Assembly: GCF_002910905.1 (NCBI RefSeq)
Contig: NZ_NEUE01000250.1
Coordinates: 1-64,000, forward strand
Direction of reading: 5' to 3'
Origin: Streptomyces sp. SM11
GTDB taxonomy: Bacteria; Actinomycetota; Actinomycetes; Streptomycetales; Streptomycetaceae
DNA length: 64,000 nt
The notes beneath the pieces are model-generated. The model was not told the DNA's origin, did no database searches, and saw nothing but the letters and a program-made list of their open reading frames with translations. Within the stretch, counting starts at the first letter, position 1. Every line of letters begins with the position of its first letter. The position numbers were made by a program, and so were the translations under genes. This document shows, piece after piece, positions 15,246-46,951 of the stretch.

Positions 15246-15873
15246 GGCCCGAAGTTCGGGGCGGTCGCTTTGAGGCTGTCCGAGCGGTGCGTGCAGGAGG
15301 CGAAGACGATCGACGACCCGAGGGCGGTGTCTTACTACCAGGCCACGCTGGCCGACGCGGCAGCCCTCGATGGGGCCCGCCGTATGGCAGGGCGGGCACT
15401 TGCCGCCTCGCAGGCCGCGATCGAGCGGAACCCCGGGCAGCCGCCCGGTGAGTCGTGGGCGTCGCACTTCAGTGCGGAACCCCGGGCAGCCGCCCGGTGA
15501 GTCGTGGGCGTCGCACTTCAGTATCGGCCGGTGGGCCCATCATTCGGGGATGATCCTCTCCCGGCTCGGCGACCTGGACAGCGCTGCCGAGCACCTGGAG
15601 CAGGCGCTCGACATCCACGGCCTGGACCGGCGGAGGAGCCGGGCGATCGTCCTCGCGGACCTCGGGAAGGTGCGCTTGCGGCAGGGGGACCTCGACGCGG
15701 CCCTGTCCACGTGGACGGAGTTCCTGGACTGCGCGGACGGCGTCCGGTCGGTGAAGATCGGCGAGGCCGCCGAGGACATGAGCACCCGACTGGACCGCTA
15801 CCGCAGCGTGGCCGCGGCCGAGGCCGACGCCCTCGTCCAGCGCGCCGAGCACCTGCTGACACCCCCGACCTGA
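15234..15873 (+). pseudogene. TPR protein remnant, 5'-truncated and broken by a 49-bp tandem duplication
   Basis: Two frames together give the C-terminal part of a TPR-type protein, as found in XRE-like regulators of Streptomyces. First comes FGAVALRLSERCVQEA to ALAASQAAIERNPGQPPG in one frame. Then comes ESWASHFSIGRWAHHSG to HLEQALDIHGL and DLGKVRLRQGDLDAALSTW in the next. The frame changes exactly across a 49-bp exact tandem duplication (15425-15473 and 15474-15522). Removing one copy restores a continuous frame. The N-terminal part (probably HTH) is absent, so the gene was already truncated or has been truncated since. Confidence 0.8.
15425..15522. repeat. Perfect 49-bp tandem duplication
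   Basis: Bases 15425-15473 are repeated at 15474-15522 without mismatch. The unit begins gcggaaccccgggcagccgc. As 49 is not divisible by three, it shifts the frame of the TPR gene. The absence of divergence between copies points to a recent event or an assembly artefact. Confidence 0.95.
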
Positions 15874-41822: not shown

Positions 41823-43250
41823 TCACCCCCGTTCCAGCCCACCCCGCCCGATGACCCCCGCGTACCACCGCGCGCTGTCCTTCGCCGTGCGGCGCTGCGA
41901 CGCGAAGTCGACGTGGACGATGCCGAACCGCTTGCTGTACCCGTACGCCCACTCGAAGTTGTCCAGCAGCGACCACAGGAAGTACCCGCATACGTCCGCC
42001 CCGTCCTCGATCGCCCGGTGCACGGCGCTCAGGTGGGCGTCCAGGTACGCCACCCGCTCCGGGTCGTGGACCTCGCCCTCCGGGTCGGCGTAGTCGTCGT
42101 ACGCGGCCCCGTTCTCCGTCACCAGCAGGGGCAGGGAGGGCAGTTCGTCGCGCAGGCGGGTCAGCAGTTCGTACAGGCCGTCGGCGTCCACCGGCCAGTC
42201 CATCGCCGTGCGCGGGCCCTCTGCCGGGGTGAACGCCACATGCTGCTCCGCGCCCGCCCACGGGGAGGGGGACTCCGACCTGCCCGCCGAAACCACGCTG
42301 GGGGAGTAGTAGTTGATGCCCAGCGAGTCGATCGGGGTCGACGTGACCTCCAGGTCGCCGTCCCGCACGAACGACCAGTCCGTCACCGCCGCCGTGTCCT
42401 CCACCAGGTCCTGCGGCAGCCGGCTGTGGAAGACCGGGTCCAGGAAGATCCGGTTCGCCACCGCGTCGATCCGGCGCACCGCGTCCCGGTCGGCCGGGGT
42501 GTCGTTCAGAGGACGCAGGGCGTGGAGGTTCAGCGTCAACGAGATCTCGGCCGTCTCCGGCAGGCGGTCGCGCAGGACCCGGGCGCCGGCGCCGTGTGCG
42601 AGGTTCAGGTGGTGGGCGGCGCGCAGGGCCGCGAGGTCGCTGGTCCGGCCGGGGGCGTGGACCCCGTTCCCGTATCCGAGGAACGCCGCGCACCAGGGCT
42701 CGTTGAGCGTCGTCCAGGTCTCCACCCGGTCGCCCAGCGCCCCCGCGACCAGGCCCGCGTACTCCGCGAACCGGTGCGCGGTGTCCCGCTCGGGCCAGCC
42801 GCCCGCGTCCTCCAGCTCCTGCGGCAGGTCCCAGTGGTAGAGCGTGGCGACCGGTCTGATCCCGGCCGTCTGCAGCTCGTCGACCAGGCGGCGGTAGAAG
42901 TCCAGGCCGCGCTCCACGGCCGGGCCCCGGCCGGTCGGCTGGACCCGGGGCCAGGAGACGGAGAACCGGTAGTCCGTGACGCCCAGTTCCTTCATCAGGC
43001 GTACGTCGTCCGGCATCCGGTGCAGATGGTCGGCGGCGATGTCACCGGTGTCGCCGTTGCGCACCTTGCCGGGCGTCCGGCTGAAGGTGTCCCAGATGGA
43101 CGGCGTACGGCCGTCCTCGGTCGCCCCGCCCTCGATCTGATAGGCGGCGGTGGCCGTGCCCCAGCGGAACGCGGTGGGGAAGCGGAGTCCCACCACGGTG
43201 TCGGGGCGGGACTCCGCGGAGGTCGCCGGACGGGCATCGACAGCGGTCAT
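41823..43250 (-). CDS. GH1 beta-glucosidase
   Basis: A 475-residue intracellular GH1 enzyme from ATG 43250; no signal peptide. The acid/base glutamate is in [12 protein letters not shown] and the nucleophile in [32 protein letters not shown] and the C-terminal [20 protein letters not shown] are also characteristic. It would hydrolyse imported beta-linked disaccharides (laminaribiose or cellobiose) to glucose. It is the last gene of the operon, 75 bases after the second permease. In the known ceb operons of Streptomyces the same order (binding protein, two permeases, BglC) is found. Confidence 0.94.
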
Positions 43251-43325
43251 GGGACGGACACTCCAGAGCGAGGGGAGGAGGGGAGGAGGGGACGAGCAGA
43301 GGAAGCGGGAGGGAAGGGCGCTGCG

Positions 43326-44249
43326 TCAGCCCTTGACCGCGCCCTGCATGATGCCGCCGACGATCTGCCGGCCCAGCAGGCCGAAGACCAGCAGCACCGG
43401 CAGTGTGCCGAGCAGTGTGCCGGCCATGATCACCGACTGGTCGTTGACGTAACCGCCGCCGAGCTGACGCAGCGCGACCTGCACGGTCGGCTCCTGCGAG
43501 GACAGCGCGATGATCGGCCAGAAGAAGTCGTTCCACGCCGTCATGAACGTGAGCATCCCGAGCACCGCCATCCCCGGCCGCGCGATCGGGATCACGATCG
43601 ACCAGAAGATCCGGGCCGTCGACGCCCCGTCCACCCGGGCCGCCTCGATCAGCTCGTCCGGCAGCGACTGCACCAGGTACTGGCGCATGAAGAAGACGCC
43701 GAAGGCGGATACCAGGCCCGGCAGGATCACGGCCTGGAGCTGGTTCACCCACTGGAGTTCGGCGATCAGCATGAACAGCGGGATCACGCCGAGCTGCGGC
43801 GGGATCATCATCGTCCCGATCGTCAGCGTCAGCAGCGCGCCCCGGCCCCGGAACTTCAGCTTGGCGAAGGCGAATCCGGCCAGCGTGCAGCACAGGACCG
43901 TGCCGAGGGTGATGGACCCCGACACGATCAGCGAGTTCAGCAGCGCCTTGCCGATGTCCGCCTCTTCGAGGACCGCGTCGAAGTTCTTGATCAGGTTGGG
44001 GCCCGGCAGCAGGCTCGGCGGCACCTGGGCCAGGTCGGCGTTGGACCGGCTGGCCGCGACGATCGTCCAGTAGAACGGGAACGCCGAGATCAGCAGGGCG
44101 AGGCCGAGGATGAGATAGGAGAGCCAGCCGCCCTTCATCGTCCGGCCCGCCCCACCGCCCCCCTTGCGGAAGCGGGGACGCTTTCCGGGCGGGTCCTGCG
44201 GCGGGCGGCCCTTCCCGGGCGCGGTCGGCGGTGCGGCGAGCGCGGTCAT
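43326..44249 (-). CDS. Sugar ABC permease, MalG/CebG-like
   Basis: A 307-residue permease. ATG 44249 overlaps the stop of the first permease (ATGA). After a basic Pro/Gly-rich N-terminus, six membrane segments follow. The EAA loop is EAARVDGASTARIFWSIVIP, where the ATPase docks. No ATPase gene is in the operon; Streptomyces CUT1 transporters normally share the MsiK ATPase encoded elsewhere (family knowledge). It pairs with the upstream permease and binding protein for beta-glucoside uptake. Confidence 0.92.
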   Translation of the reverse strand: MTALAAPPTAPGKGRPPQDPPGKRPRFRKGGGGAGRTMKGGWLSYLILGLALLISAFPFYWTIVAASRSNADLAQVPPSLLPGPNLIKNFDAVLEEADIGKALLNSLIVSGSITLGTVLCCTLAGFAFAKLKFRGRGALLTLTIGTMMIPPQLGVIPLFMLIAELQWVNQLQAVILPGLVSAFGVFFMRQYLVQSLPDELIEAARVDGASTARIFWSIVIPIARPGMAVLGMLTFMTAWNDFFWPIIALSSQEPTVQVALRQLGGGYVNDQSVIMAGTLLGTLPVLLVFGLLGRQIVGGIMQGAVKG

Positions 44250-45223
44250 CGGCTGGCCTCCTTGCGTGCACGGTGGCGTACGAGCAGGGCGTTGGCCCCG
44301 ACGAGCACCACGATCAGGACGAACATCACCCAGGCGATGGCCGCGGCCCGGCCCAGGTGGAAGAAGCCCCAGCCCTGCTCGTACATGTACAGGCCGAGGG
44401 TCTGGTACTGGTGCGAGATGCCGCCGGAGATCGACCCCTCGAACAGCAGCGGCTCACCGAAGAGCTGCGTCGCGCCGATCGTCGAGATGATCACCGTGAA
44501 GACGATCGTGGGGCGGAGTCCGGGCAGTGTCACGTGGATGAACTGGCGCCAGCGCGATGCCCCGTCCATCTCCGCCGCCTCGTACAGCTCGTGCGGGATC
44601 GACTGCATCCCCGCCAGGTAGATCAGCGCGTTGTACCCGGTCCACCGCCAGATCACGATGCTGGAGACCGCGATCTGCGAGGCGACCGTCCCCGTCTGCC
44701 AGTCCACCGGGTCGAAGCCGACGAGCCCGATCACGTAGTTGATCAGACCGAAGTCCCGGCCGAAGAGCTGTGCGAAGACGAGCGTGGCCGCGGCGACGGA
44801 CGTCGCGTACGGGAGCAGGATCGCGGTCCTGATGAACGTCCGCCCGCGCAGCTTGTAGTTGAGCAGGTGGGCGAGGCCCAGTGCCATCGCCAGCTGCGGG
44901 ACCGTCGACAGCACGCCGATGGTGAACGTGTTGCGCAGTGAGATCCAGAAGTACTCGTCGGTGAACAGCGCCGTGTAGTTGGCGATGCCCCGCCACTCCA
45001 TCTCGCCGCTCGTCTGGAGCTCGACCCGGTAGAGCGAGACGAACGCCGTGTAGAGGAGCGGGAAGAGTCCGAAGGCCAGGAAGAGCGTGAAGAAGGGGGC
45101 GATGTAGGCGTACGGGGAGGCCTTGCGCCAGGTGCGCCGGAGGGCGGCGGCCCGGCCGTCGTCGGGGCCGGGCCCGGTTCCGGACGGGCGTGGCCCGGCC
45201 TTCGCGGTGGCGGTGAGGGACAC
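44246..45223 (-). CDS. Sugar ABC permease, MalF/CebF-like
   Basis: A 325-residue permease. I chose GTG 45223 (GTG-TCC-CTC-ACC, with a GAAGGG ribosome site upstream) because the sequence before it is low-complexity, although the frame is open to 45292. Six membrane segments begin with ASPYAYIAPFFTLFLAFGLF. The EAA loop is YEAAEMDGASRWRQFIHVTL. It forms the membrane channel with the next gene product. About 100 bases of purine-rich tract (pyrimidine-rich in the mRNA) separate it from the binding-protein gene, an unusual gap for such an operon. Confidence 0.92.
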   Translation of the reverse strand: MSLTATAKAGPRPSGTGPGPDDGRAAALRRTWRKASPYAYIAPFFTLFLAFGLFPLLYTAFVSLYRVELQTSGEMEWRGIANYTALFTDEYFWISLRNTFTIGVLSTVPQLAMALGLAHLLNYKLRGRTFIRTAILLPYATSVAAATLVFAQLFGRDFGLINYVIGLVGFDPVDWQTGTVASQIAVSSIVIWRWTGYNALIYLAGMQSIPHELYEAAEMDGASRWRQFIHVTLPGLRPTIVFTVIISTIGATQLFGEPLLFEGSISGGISHQYQTLGLYMYEQGWGFFHLGRAAAIAWVMFVLIVVLVGANALLVRHRARKEASR

Positions 45224-45319
45224 GGTGCGGCCCTTCGGGATCGGGAGCGGACTGGTGGGGGAGCCAAGGGCACGGGGCCGGGGCCGGTCCATCCCCCGTG
45301 CGCGGGCGGACCGGCCCCC

Positions 45320-45414
45320 GGGAGGGAGGAGAAGGGAGGAGAAGGGAGGAGGAAGGAGGAGGAAGGAGGAGGAAGGAGGAGGAGGAAGGAGAAAGGAGGG
45401 AGGGAAGGAGTCGG
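45320..45414. repeat. Purine-rich AGGAGG/GGAAGGAGG tract
   Basis: About 95 bases of almost pure A/G on the plus strand, made of 9-12 base units such as ggaggaggaa and gggaggagaa. It lies between the binding-protein stop and the first permease start. The operon is read from the minus strand, so its mRNA here is a run of CCUCCUU-like units, the same string as the anti-Shine-Dalgarno end of 16S rRNA. Confidence 0.95.
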
Positions 45415-45431: not shown

Positions 45432-46736
45432 TCAGCCGATCACGTTGGCCACGCCCTTCTTCGCCGTCTCCCACGCCTTGTCCGACGCCTTCCCCTTGCG
45501 CTCGACCTCGCTCAGCGCGTTCGTGATCTGCTGCATCACGTTCTGGTCGTGCACACCCAGCACCTGGACCGGGGACTCCTTGGCCGCGTCGCCGAAGATC
45601 TGGCCGATCGGGGCGCCCGAGAAGTACTCGTCCTCGGCGTCCGCGATCGTCTCGATGGCACCGGTCGAGGACGGGAAGTTGCCCTGCTTCTGGAAGACCT
45701 TCGCCTGCTGCTCGGGGGCGGTCAGCCACTCGATGAGTGCGTACGCCTCCTTCTTGTGCTTGGCCGCACGCGGGATGGAGAGGTACGAGCCGCCCCAGTT
45801 GCCCGCGCCGCCGGGCAGCTTGGCGATGTCCCACTTGCCCTGGCCGGCGTCGCCGGCCTGGCCCTTGACGTAGCCGAGCATCCAGGCCGGGCACGGGATC
45901 GTCGCGAACGAACCGGCCGCGAACGCCTGGTTCCACTGCGGGGACCACTGGTCGAGCTTGGCGCTCAGGCCCGCCTCGGCCGCCTCCACGGAGGTGTCCC
46001 AGGCCTCCTTGACCGCCGGGTTGCTGTCGTAGATCAGCTCGCCGGAGGCGTCGTAGTACCGCTCCTTCTCCTGGCCGATCATGATCCCGTAGAGCGAGCC
46101 GACGCTGTCCAGCCAGGCGCTCTTGGCGGGGGCCTTCTTCTTGTACTGCTTGCCCAGCTCCAGGTAGCCGTCCCACGTGGCCCACTTCTTCGCGAGCTCC
46201 TCGCGGTCCGTGGGCAGGCCGGCCTGCTTGAAGAGGTCGGTGCGATAGCACATGGCCTCGGGGCCGACGTCCGTGCCGAGGCCGAGGATCTTGCCGTCCT
46301 TCGTGGTCGCCGCCGACCACTTGGCCTCGGCGAACTCGTCCTTGAGCTTGTCGGCCCCGAACTCCTTCAGGTCCTGGAACTTGTCGGACTGCTGCTGGGT
46401 GACCGACGCGATGCGGCCCACCTCGACCCCTTGCACGTCCGCGAGACCGCCGCCGCCCGCGAGGCGGGTCTGGAGTGACTTCCAGTAGTCCGCCTCGTCC
46501 TGGGTGTCGCTCTGCTTGATCGTCACGTTCGGGTTGAGCTTCTGGTACTCCTCGTACAGGCCGGCCTCCTTGAAGCCGAAGGACCCGAAGAGGTCGACGG
46601 TGAGCGTGACCTTTCCGCCCGCGCTGTCGGAGGAGTCCGACGAGTCGCTGGATCCACAGGCGGCGAGGAGGGCCCCGGCGAGGACGACCGCGCCGAGGCG
46701 GGCGGTGGCTCTCTTGGCGGCTCGGGCGATGGGCAT
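45432..46736 (-). CDS. Sugar ABC solute-binding lipoprotein, CebE-like
   Basis: A 434-residue lipoprotein from ATG 46736. The signal peptide ends in the lipobox GALLAACGSS (Cys27). A Ser/Asp-rich linker precedes a periplasmic-binding-protein domain: SFGFKEAGLYEEYQKLNPN, KFQDLKEFGADKLKDEFAE and FATIPCPAWMLGYVKG. It fits the SBP_bac_1/CUT1 group for di- and oligosaccharides. It is the first gene of the operon with two permeases and a GH1 enzyme. Two perfect or near-perfect LacI-type palindromes lie in the region shared with the divergent glucanase gene. Confidence 0.93.
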   Translation of the reverse strand: MPIARAAKRATARLGAVVLAGALLAACGSSDSSDSSDSAGGKVTLTVDLFGSFGFKEAGLYEEYQKLNPNVTIKQSDTQDEADYWKSLQTRLAGGGGLADVQGVEVGRIASVTQQQSDKFQDLKEFGADKLKDEFAEAKWSAATTKDGKILGLGTDVGPEAMCYRTDLFKQAGLPTDREELAKKWATWDGYLELGKQYKKKAPAKSAWLDSVGSLYGIMIGQEKERYYDASGELIYDSNPAVKEAWDTSVEAAEAGLSAKLDQWSPQWNQAFAAGSFATIPCPAWMLGYVKGQAGDAGQGKWDIAKLPGGAGNWGGSYLSIPRAAKHKKEAYALIEWLTAPEQQAKVFQKQGNFPSSTGAIETIADAEDEYFSGAPIGQIFGDAAKESPVQVLGVHDQNVMQQITNALSEVERKGKASDKAWETAKKGVANVIG

Positions 46737-46774: not shown

Positions 46775-46788
46775 TGAGAGCGCTCTCA
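46775..46788. promoter_or_regulatory. LacI-type operator of the uptake operon
   Basis: TGAGAGCGCTCTCA, a perfect 14-bp palindrome with the central AGCGCT of CebR-type sites (TGGGAGCGCTCCCA). It lies between the binding-protein promoter and its ATG. Confidence 0.88.
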
Positions 46789-46937: not shown

Positions 46938-46951
46938 TGAGAGCGCTCTCG
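46938..46951. promoter_or_regulatory. LacI-type operator of the endo-glucanase gene
   Basis: TGAGAGCGCTCTCG, one base from the palindrome at 46775. It overlaps the expected start point of the glucanase mRNA. Confidence 0.85.

Follow-up and report, generated by a model that had tools for sequence, protein, structure and literature searches.

A C-rich pyrimidine tract followed by a hairpin in the binding-protein/permease linker of a Streptomyces sugar operon: a candidate Rho attenuator and 3′-end protector

The binding protein is the subunit of an ABC transporter that is typically required in excess, and to our knowledge the way in which GC-rich bacteria obtain much binding protein and little permease from one operon is poorly understood. 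In Streptomyces sp. SM11, a long tract made up of pyrimidines only stands in the mRNA of a sugar ABC operon, between the gene of the binding protein and that of the first permease, and raises the question of whether such a tract takes part in setting this ratio or is a harmless repeat. We examined the tract, the hairpin that follows it and the corresponding linkers of related genomes, starting from a 64-kb stretch of contig NZ_NEUE01000250.1, positions 1 to 64,000, which is referred to as the window.

Layout of the operon and of its first linker

The operon is read from the minus strand in the order binding protein (E), two permeases (F and G) and a GH1 beta-glucosidase, as shown in Table 1. 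Upstream of it lie a divergent gene with a GH81 domain and then a gene for a LacI-family regulator. The solved structure nearest to the binding protein by sequence was 8bfy, which is named a putative secreted cellobiose-binding protein. Two TGAGAGCGCTCTC inverted repeats were noticed by eye in the interval that separates the binding-protein gene from the divergent GH81 gene (46775-46788 and 46938-46950), and these are probably operators of the LacI-family regulator. Elsewhere in the window, a 49-base unit forms a perfect tandem duplication at 15425-15522.

Table 1. Features of the sugar operon and its linkers in the window.
Feature	Position	Strand	Evidence
Substrate-binding protein gene (E)	45432..46736	-	SBP_bac_8/SBP_bac_1 Pfam; open reading frame; solved-structure search
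Pure pyrimidine tract, 91 nt	45320..45410	-	C 56 / T 35, no G; 10-base repeat
GC hairpin	45280..45318	-	Fold; sequence; clade pattern; pair count; genome pattern search
Likely ribosome-binding site GAAGGG of permease F	45231..45236	-	19/20 clade linkers; accessibility
Permease gene F, likely start GTG 45223	44246..45223	-	BPD_transp_1 Pfam; GTG in 19/20 clade linkers
Permease gene G	43326..44249	-	BPD_transp_1 Pfam
Shorter pyrimidine tract (23 nt) between G and the beta-glucosidase gene	43270..43292	-	Run scan of the 64-kb window
GH1 beta-glucosidase gene	41823..43250	-	Pfam; TIGR03356 above cut-off

The longest reading frame of permease F opens at ATG 45292, which sits at the junction of the hairpin loop and its 3′ arm. 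Alignment of the permeases leads to a GTG preceded by GAAGGG in 19 of the 20 linkers of the close clade (distinct linkers with a permease identity of at least 96%, the window's own included), the exception being that of S. anulatus NRRL B-2873 (L051), where the permease match begins at residue 27, the usual GTG is gone and the N-terminal end is missing. The start of permease F is most likely GTG 45223 rather than the ATG inside the hairpin, and with that start the untranslated linker between E and F is 208 nt long. The support that a gene finder lends to 45223 is circular and was left uncounted, since F from 45223 was part of its training set.

In the mRNA sense (minus strand, 45410-45320), 91 pyrimidines follow one another uninterrupted (56 C and 35 T), a length which is unproven to the base because the assembly is a draft of 311 contigs. 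The tract sets in 21 nt 3′ of the binding-protein stop (TGA, 45434-45432) and ends about 97 nt upstream of the permease start, with the hairpin in between. Its place between the binding-protein and permease genes was thus as the original prediction had it, apart from the end given as 45414, which lies four bases too far. The tract repeats with a period of 10 bases, as slippage-prone simple repeats do. Its identity at lag 10 is 78%, and 2000 composition shuffles gave no more than 76% at any lag from 3 to 30. CCTCC occurs in 14 overlapping copies where 4.8 are expected, and none of 5000 composition shuffles had 14, which is usual for a repeat; CCTCCTT occurs in four copies against 0.7 expected from such shuffles. 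The 16S rRNA of the same genome ends in GGATCACCTCCTTTCT, and its exact last 10 bases, CCTCCTTTCT, are present once in the tract and also in 5.7% of composition shuffles. A C/U tract that repeats every 10 bases brings copies of CCUCC with it, and the anti-Shine-Dalgarno look of the tract is mostly a by-product.

A single base (45319) separates the tract from the hairpin, GGGGCCGGTCC / GGACCGGCCCC, whose outer stem of 11 pairs joins the arms 45318-45308 and 45290-45280. An intrinsic terminator with a U-tract was considered and rejected, as the hairpin is followed by GGCCCCGUGCCC, which holds no U run. The hairpin was detected in all 24 linkers examined, 20 of which form the clade, with a pattern written for this very hairpin; by eye, it was not evident in some more distant linkers, such as L009. 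Across the stem, 95.8% of the cells were paired, against 17-61% when the partner arm was slid. Compensatory change was seen in one pair, and 299 of 500 shuffles scored as high; covariation is not demonstrated because the stem is nearly invariant. The exact stem pattern was found at a single further genomic site, 85 bases 3′ of a 349-aa reading frame, which speaks against a genome repeat family. The 213-nt segment as a whole has no unusual fold stability (z 0.90, with 168 of 200 shuffles folding at least as well). A stable, conserved hairpin after the binding-protein gene, devoid of a U-tract, is one mark of a differential-decay element of the malE type, and such a hairpin is present here.

Run length, C-richness and recurrence in related operons

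The tract is far beyond chance. Runs of at least 20 nt arose 0.5-1.5 times per Mb, and runs of 30 never, in Markov models built on the window (orders 1, 3 and 5; 2 Mb each). The genome itself (40 stretches, 621,961 bases) contained 29 runs of at least 14 and none of at least 20, and the close relative G347 (16 stretches, 320,000 bases) contained 18 and two, respectively, the longest being 23. Only two purine/pyrimidine runs of at least 20 are present in the whole window, namely the two tracts of Table 1; both belong to the sugar operon and both are pyrimidine on its mRNA. On either strand of the 64 kb, the 78-nt segment with the highest C/G ratio is the tract itself (47 C and no G). The next separate segment has a ratio of 3.6, and the 23-nt tract lies within the third-highest separate one. 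Expressed as (C-G)/78, the tract reaches 0.60, compared with a top value of 0.50 among 123,826 segments sampled from the 40 stretches of its own genome and with maxima of 0.08-0.21 in the binding-protein coding parts of 24 loci.

Three sources supplied the orthologues. One genus sample gave matches, some of them paralogues, in 114 of its 121 genomes at E 1e-60; another, searched at E 1e-165, gave matches in 71 of 392; and from a named collection the best 80 of 516 were used. The collections hold one genome per species. The 20 clade linkers come from these samples, the best 80 of 516 among them, and their runs were counted with the adjoining 30 bases on either side included. The longest runs were 91 (window), 27, 23, 20, 19, 18, 17, 16, 16, 16, 14, 14, 12, 11, 10, 10, 9, 9, 8 and 8; a run of at least 14 is present in 12 of the 20 linkers, the window counted, and none of the 19 relatives (8-27) carries one as long as that of the window. 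Among these linkers, the two nearest by permease (99%) have runs of 9 (S. anulatus JCM 4721, L003) and 10 (G347), and two at 98% have runs of 19 (S. anulatus NRRL B-2873) and 18 (Streptomyces sp. rh34, L034). By binding-protein identity to the window, the latter two stand at 97% and the former two at 95%. The draft of McG3 (98%) breaks within the linker, and its binding-protein side reads beyond the hairpin with no tract on the way. By eye, the linker of rh34 holds a short pyrimidine-rich version between flanks similar to those of the window, which looks like a seed for the window's tract; slippage would be the cause of the expansion.

Several linkers were unusual in other ways. The E-F linker of G347 (L113) is 301 nt long, with the hairpin-containing unit seemingly in tandem copies, and that of S. 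parvus JCM 4069 (L046) shows a tandem repeat of the segment around the binding-protein stop, both judged by eye. In six loci of the best 80 of 516 (L033, L038, L050, L074, L094 and L097), a contig end falls inside or just beyond the linker, and the linker may be hard to sequence or assemble.

Each linker was scored by the largest (C-G)/78 across its 78-nt segments, measured up to the first matched residue where the permease match starts late and with the linker end of L051 set by hand at 130 nt. All 20 clade linkers scored at least 0.32, with a median of 0.38. Background same-strand gaps of 100-450 nt in two sampled genomes numbered 163, of which seven reached the clade minimum and one the clade median; these gaps may hide missed genes, because the gene finder that delimited them, trained on six genes of the window, called only 71-75% of the sampled DNA coding. 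In more distant orthologues, 51 of 63 linkers reached 0.32, the set being limited to distinct linkers of 60-600 nt with an identity of 77-92%. The linker counts overstate independence, since their rows are related sequences. A strong excess of C over G thus persists in the relatives despite the turnover of the linker sequence, and the tract is an extreme, expanded version of an untranslated linker whose C-rich, G-poor character is conserved. The expectation in the original prediction of a conserved tract in related operons therefore failed for the long tract and held for the C-rich linker, which carries a stretch with a strong excess of C over G in 20 of 20 cases.

In addition, we counted runs of at least 16 nt in 74 orthologue loci (577,299 bases, window excluded). 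A total of 38 were obtained, 37 of which are pyrimidine on the mRNA strand, the sole purine run being located upstream of the binding-protein gene. Two gaps harbor 28 of the 38, all pyrimidine: the E-F gap has 10, and the one that precedes the beta-glucosidase gene has 18 (15 from the count plus three assigned on inspection); the other mRNA-strand pyrimidine runs lie in coding parts or past the beta-glucosidase gene. The gap before the beta-glucosidase gene contains a run of at least 14 in 14 of 20 clade genomes, a set in which L033 and L038 take the place of L006 and L118 of the E-F set, against three of 232 background gaps (40-450 nt). The tracts of the relatives in this gap reach up to 40 nt (S. 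filamentosus, L098). Since the sequences of the recurring tracts differ, they look like the result of repeated, independent growth.

The longest run in the 232 background gaps, 19 nt, was found in the permease/beta-glucosidase gap of a paralogous operon, on a contig that had been chosen on purpose. The paralogous gap (L169, 17527-17599 of G000 contig 199) is C-rich and pyrimidine-rich, with an operator-like GGGAGCGCTTCC box immediately upstream of the start, and the corresponding gaps of the relatives resemble it. Close homologues of the paralogous permease were present in 13 of 61 genomes; in all 13, C exceeds G in the gap and, by eye, a box of the GGGAGCG type, which we take to be the CebR box, stands directly before the start.

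Candidate roles of the tract and the hairpin

The reading that we prefer, with a probability of about 0.4, is that the slippage-expanded C-rich linker is a Rho loading site which forms, together with a hairpin protecting the 3′ end, a two-part module inside the operon. Ribosomes would leave at the binding-protein stop, and Rho would load on the naked pyrimidine RNA and stop some transcripts ahead of the permease genes or inside them; exonucleases would then trim the RNA back to the hairpin, which would shield the binding-protein message. With a Rho loading site and a protecting hairpin, fewer transcripts would therefore reach the permease genes, so that binding protein would be plentiful, and permease and beta-glucosidase would be made in smaller amounts. 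With its 91 nt, the tract would make the Rho step stronger in this genome than in its relatives. Among the mechanisms that could set the high binding-protein/low permease ratio put forward in the original prediction, this Rho/3′-end role is the best supported; the anatomy was observed, and from it we infer that Rho acts, that the ends are trimmed and that expression is skewed.

RNA 3′ of a stop codon is free of ribosomes, and Rho binds C-rich, G-poor RNA that is unstructured over 70-80 nt. The tract fits this description, with 47 C and no G in a 78-nt segment and, in its first 78 bases, six C having 11-13 bases between neighbours, the regular spacing having been assessed with a re-implementation of the published wording of RhoTermPredict and not with the program. 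The linker runs untranslated from the stop at 45432 to the likely start at 45223, the tract is unpaired in the predicted fold, and a hairpin that could act as a pause site (45280-45318) follows within 150 nt downstream. The loop of its outer stem exceeds the 4-8 nt of RhoTermPredict, and the predicted inner pairs leave a loop of 4 nt. The genome encodes a Rho of 676 aa (TIGR00767, 657.8 bits against a cut-off of 509.45). A second match to the RNA-binding domain of Rho was obtained in a 150-aa open frame of G000 contig 305 (4156-4353, L155).

RhoTermPredict, as outlined, requires a stretch of this kind with cytosines at regular intervals and, downstream of it, a pause site, for which a hairpin can serve (PMC6407284). 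An untranslated (UC)n repeat is reported to terminate transcription efficiently with Rho (Guerin et al. 1998, as described in PMC5021804). Like the tract, that artificial terminator is a long simple pyrimidine repeat, untranslated and free of G; it was man-made and assayed both in vivo and in vitro, whereas the tract is natural, of the CCUCCU type and a candidate. Structured 3′ ends without a U-tract in S. griseus and S. clavuligerus have been discussed as possible trimmed products of Rho termination or as U-less terminators (PMC8914203, PMC8269248).

Other observations stand against the Rho reading. The long tract is not common to the relatives, with runs of 9 and 10 in the pair at 99% permease identity and none in McG3. 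In E. coli, the C/G ratio is reported to have no strong correlation with termination, the strongest cases having a C/G below 2 (PMC6407284). In the account given of E. coli operons with differential decay, malEFG included, no significant Rho termination was reported at the hairpins, cases of substantial Rho termination having been removed from the set beforehand (PMC5927463). The insert of mycobacterial Rho, as described, could alter the recognition of rut sites (PMC4499133).

A neutral repeat beside a working hairpin is nearly as likely, because the tract is unshared, because of the E. coli results on C/G and on decay, and because of the z of 0.90. Here the hairpin alone would be functional, as a 3′ protector of the malE-malF type or a weak U-less terminator, and the tract would be a tolerated neutral expansion of a microsatellite. 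The hairpin is present in 20 of 20 clade linkers while their runs range from 8 to 91, the two relatives nearest by permease and McG3 do without a long run, and the tract has the 10-base period of a repeat. The other copy of the stem, past the 349-aa frame, lies where a 3′-end hairpin is expected. The strand bias (37 of 38 runs pyrimidine on the mRNA strand) would also follow, because the purine orientation, with its repeats of GGAGG, would put spurious ribosome-binding sites on the message. Less easily accommodated are the strong excess of C over G that relatives keep after the turnover of the linker sequence and the crowding of 28 of the 38 long runs into two operon gaps, when only three of 232 background gaps hold a run of at least 14.

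It is unlikely, if conceivable, that the strand-locked polypyrimidine linkers of this operon family are length-tunable rheostats of Rho, in which slippage in two gaps, that between E and F and that ahead of the beta-glucosidase gene, would resize the Rho loading site and make the stoichiometry of the transporter evolvable.

A block at the level of DNA, where the purine template strand would fold into a G-quadruplex or a triplex and slow RNA polymerase, appears improbable. The plus strand of the tract has one (G3N1-7)3G3 match and six GGG runs, and the arms of its mirror symmetry span 25 bases against a shuffle mean of 13.6 and maximum of 26; however, the relatives retain the C-richness without a run of such length, and mirror symmetry would be expected for a repeat of this sort. 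We give slightly less credence to a platform for another pyrimidine-binding protein, such as ribosomal protein S1 or an RNase complex, that would affect translation or decay. The pyrimidine RNA is unstructured in the predicted fold, and in many relatives pyrimidine stretches of the second gap were seen by eye shortly 5′ of the ribosome-binding site of the beta-glucosidase gene, yet the E-F tract is some 97 nt away from the permease start with the hairpin intervening, and no fixed motif is shared among the tracts of the relatives.

The proposal of the original prediction that the tract works as many anti-Shine-Dalgarno copies, its CCUCCUU units masking the ribosome-binding sites of downstream genes in cis, is the least credible: despite its 14 CCTCC and a single perfect match to the final 10 bases of 16S rRNA, the pairing probability between the permease site and the tract is 0.05-0.06 in the predicted fold, removal of the tract in silico leaves the accessibility of that site nearly unchanged, and this accessibility (0.20) falls inside the range of 18 relatives (0.13-0.39). 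On the folding prediction, masking of the permease site is rejected as the main function, and the tract is not predicted to act as a sequestrator. As for the beta-glucosidase gene, its GGAG site is predicted to be mostly paired in 13 of 19 genomes, the window included, and open (0.71-0.75) in the other six. Masking there is not claimed, because the prediction is mixed and background sites are often closed as well (61 sites; lower quartile 0.06 unpaired, median 0.25).

Comparison with known systems and implications

Beside the artificial (UC)n terminator, the closest parallel to the linker is the E. coli malE-malF gap, which has the same gene order (binding protein, then permeases) and a stable hairpin after the binding-protein gene, and by whose hairpin the malE message is described as stabilised (PMC5927463). 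In the treatment of malE-malF given there, the hairpin acts together with RNase cleavage and without significant Rho termination, whereas in the window a C-rich stretch comes first and is followed by a single GC hairpin. The U-less (I-shaped) hairpins at Streptomyces 3′ ends likewise have a GC-rich stem with no U-tract at the 3′ end of a gene; the hairpin of the window, a putative 3′-end structure, differs in lying inside an operon. The 10-base units in unequal copies and the lineage-specific length are shared with bacterial microsatellites, but the tract is intergenic, so its length changes switch no reading frame. Among the papers listed by the literature searches, several of which were broad and gave mostly unrelated work, none described the E-F linker, which is no proof of absence.

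Rho sites in Streptomyces are hard to recognise from sequence. The linker of this operon is probably an attenuator of the Rho type or a harmless repeat beside a 3′ protector. If the tract is inert, it would still document recurrent, strand-locked growth of repeats in the gaps of one operon family. A natural tract of 91 nt free of G, together with relatives that lack the tract and keep the same hairpin, offers a ready-made test of how C-richness relates to Rho-dependent read-through.
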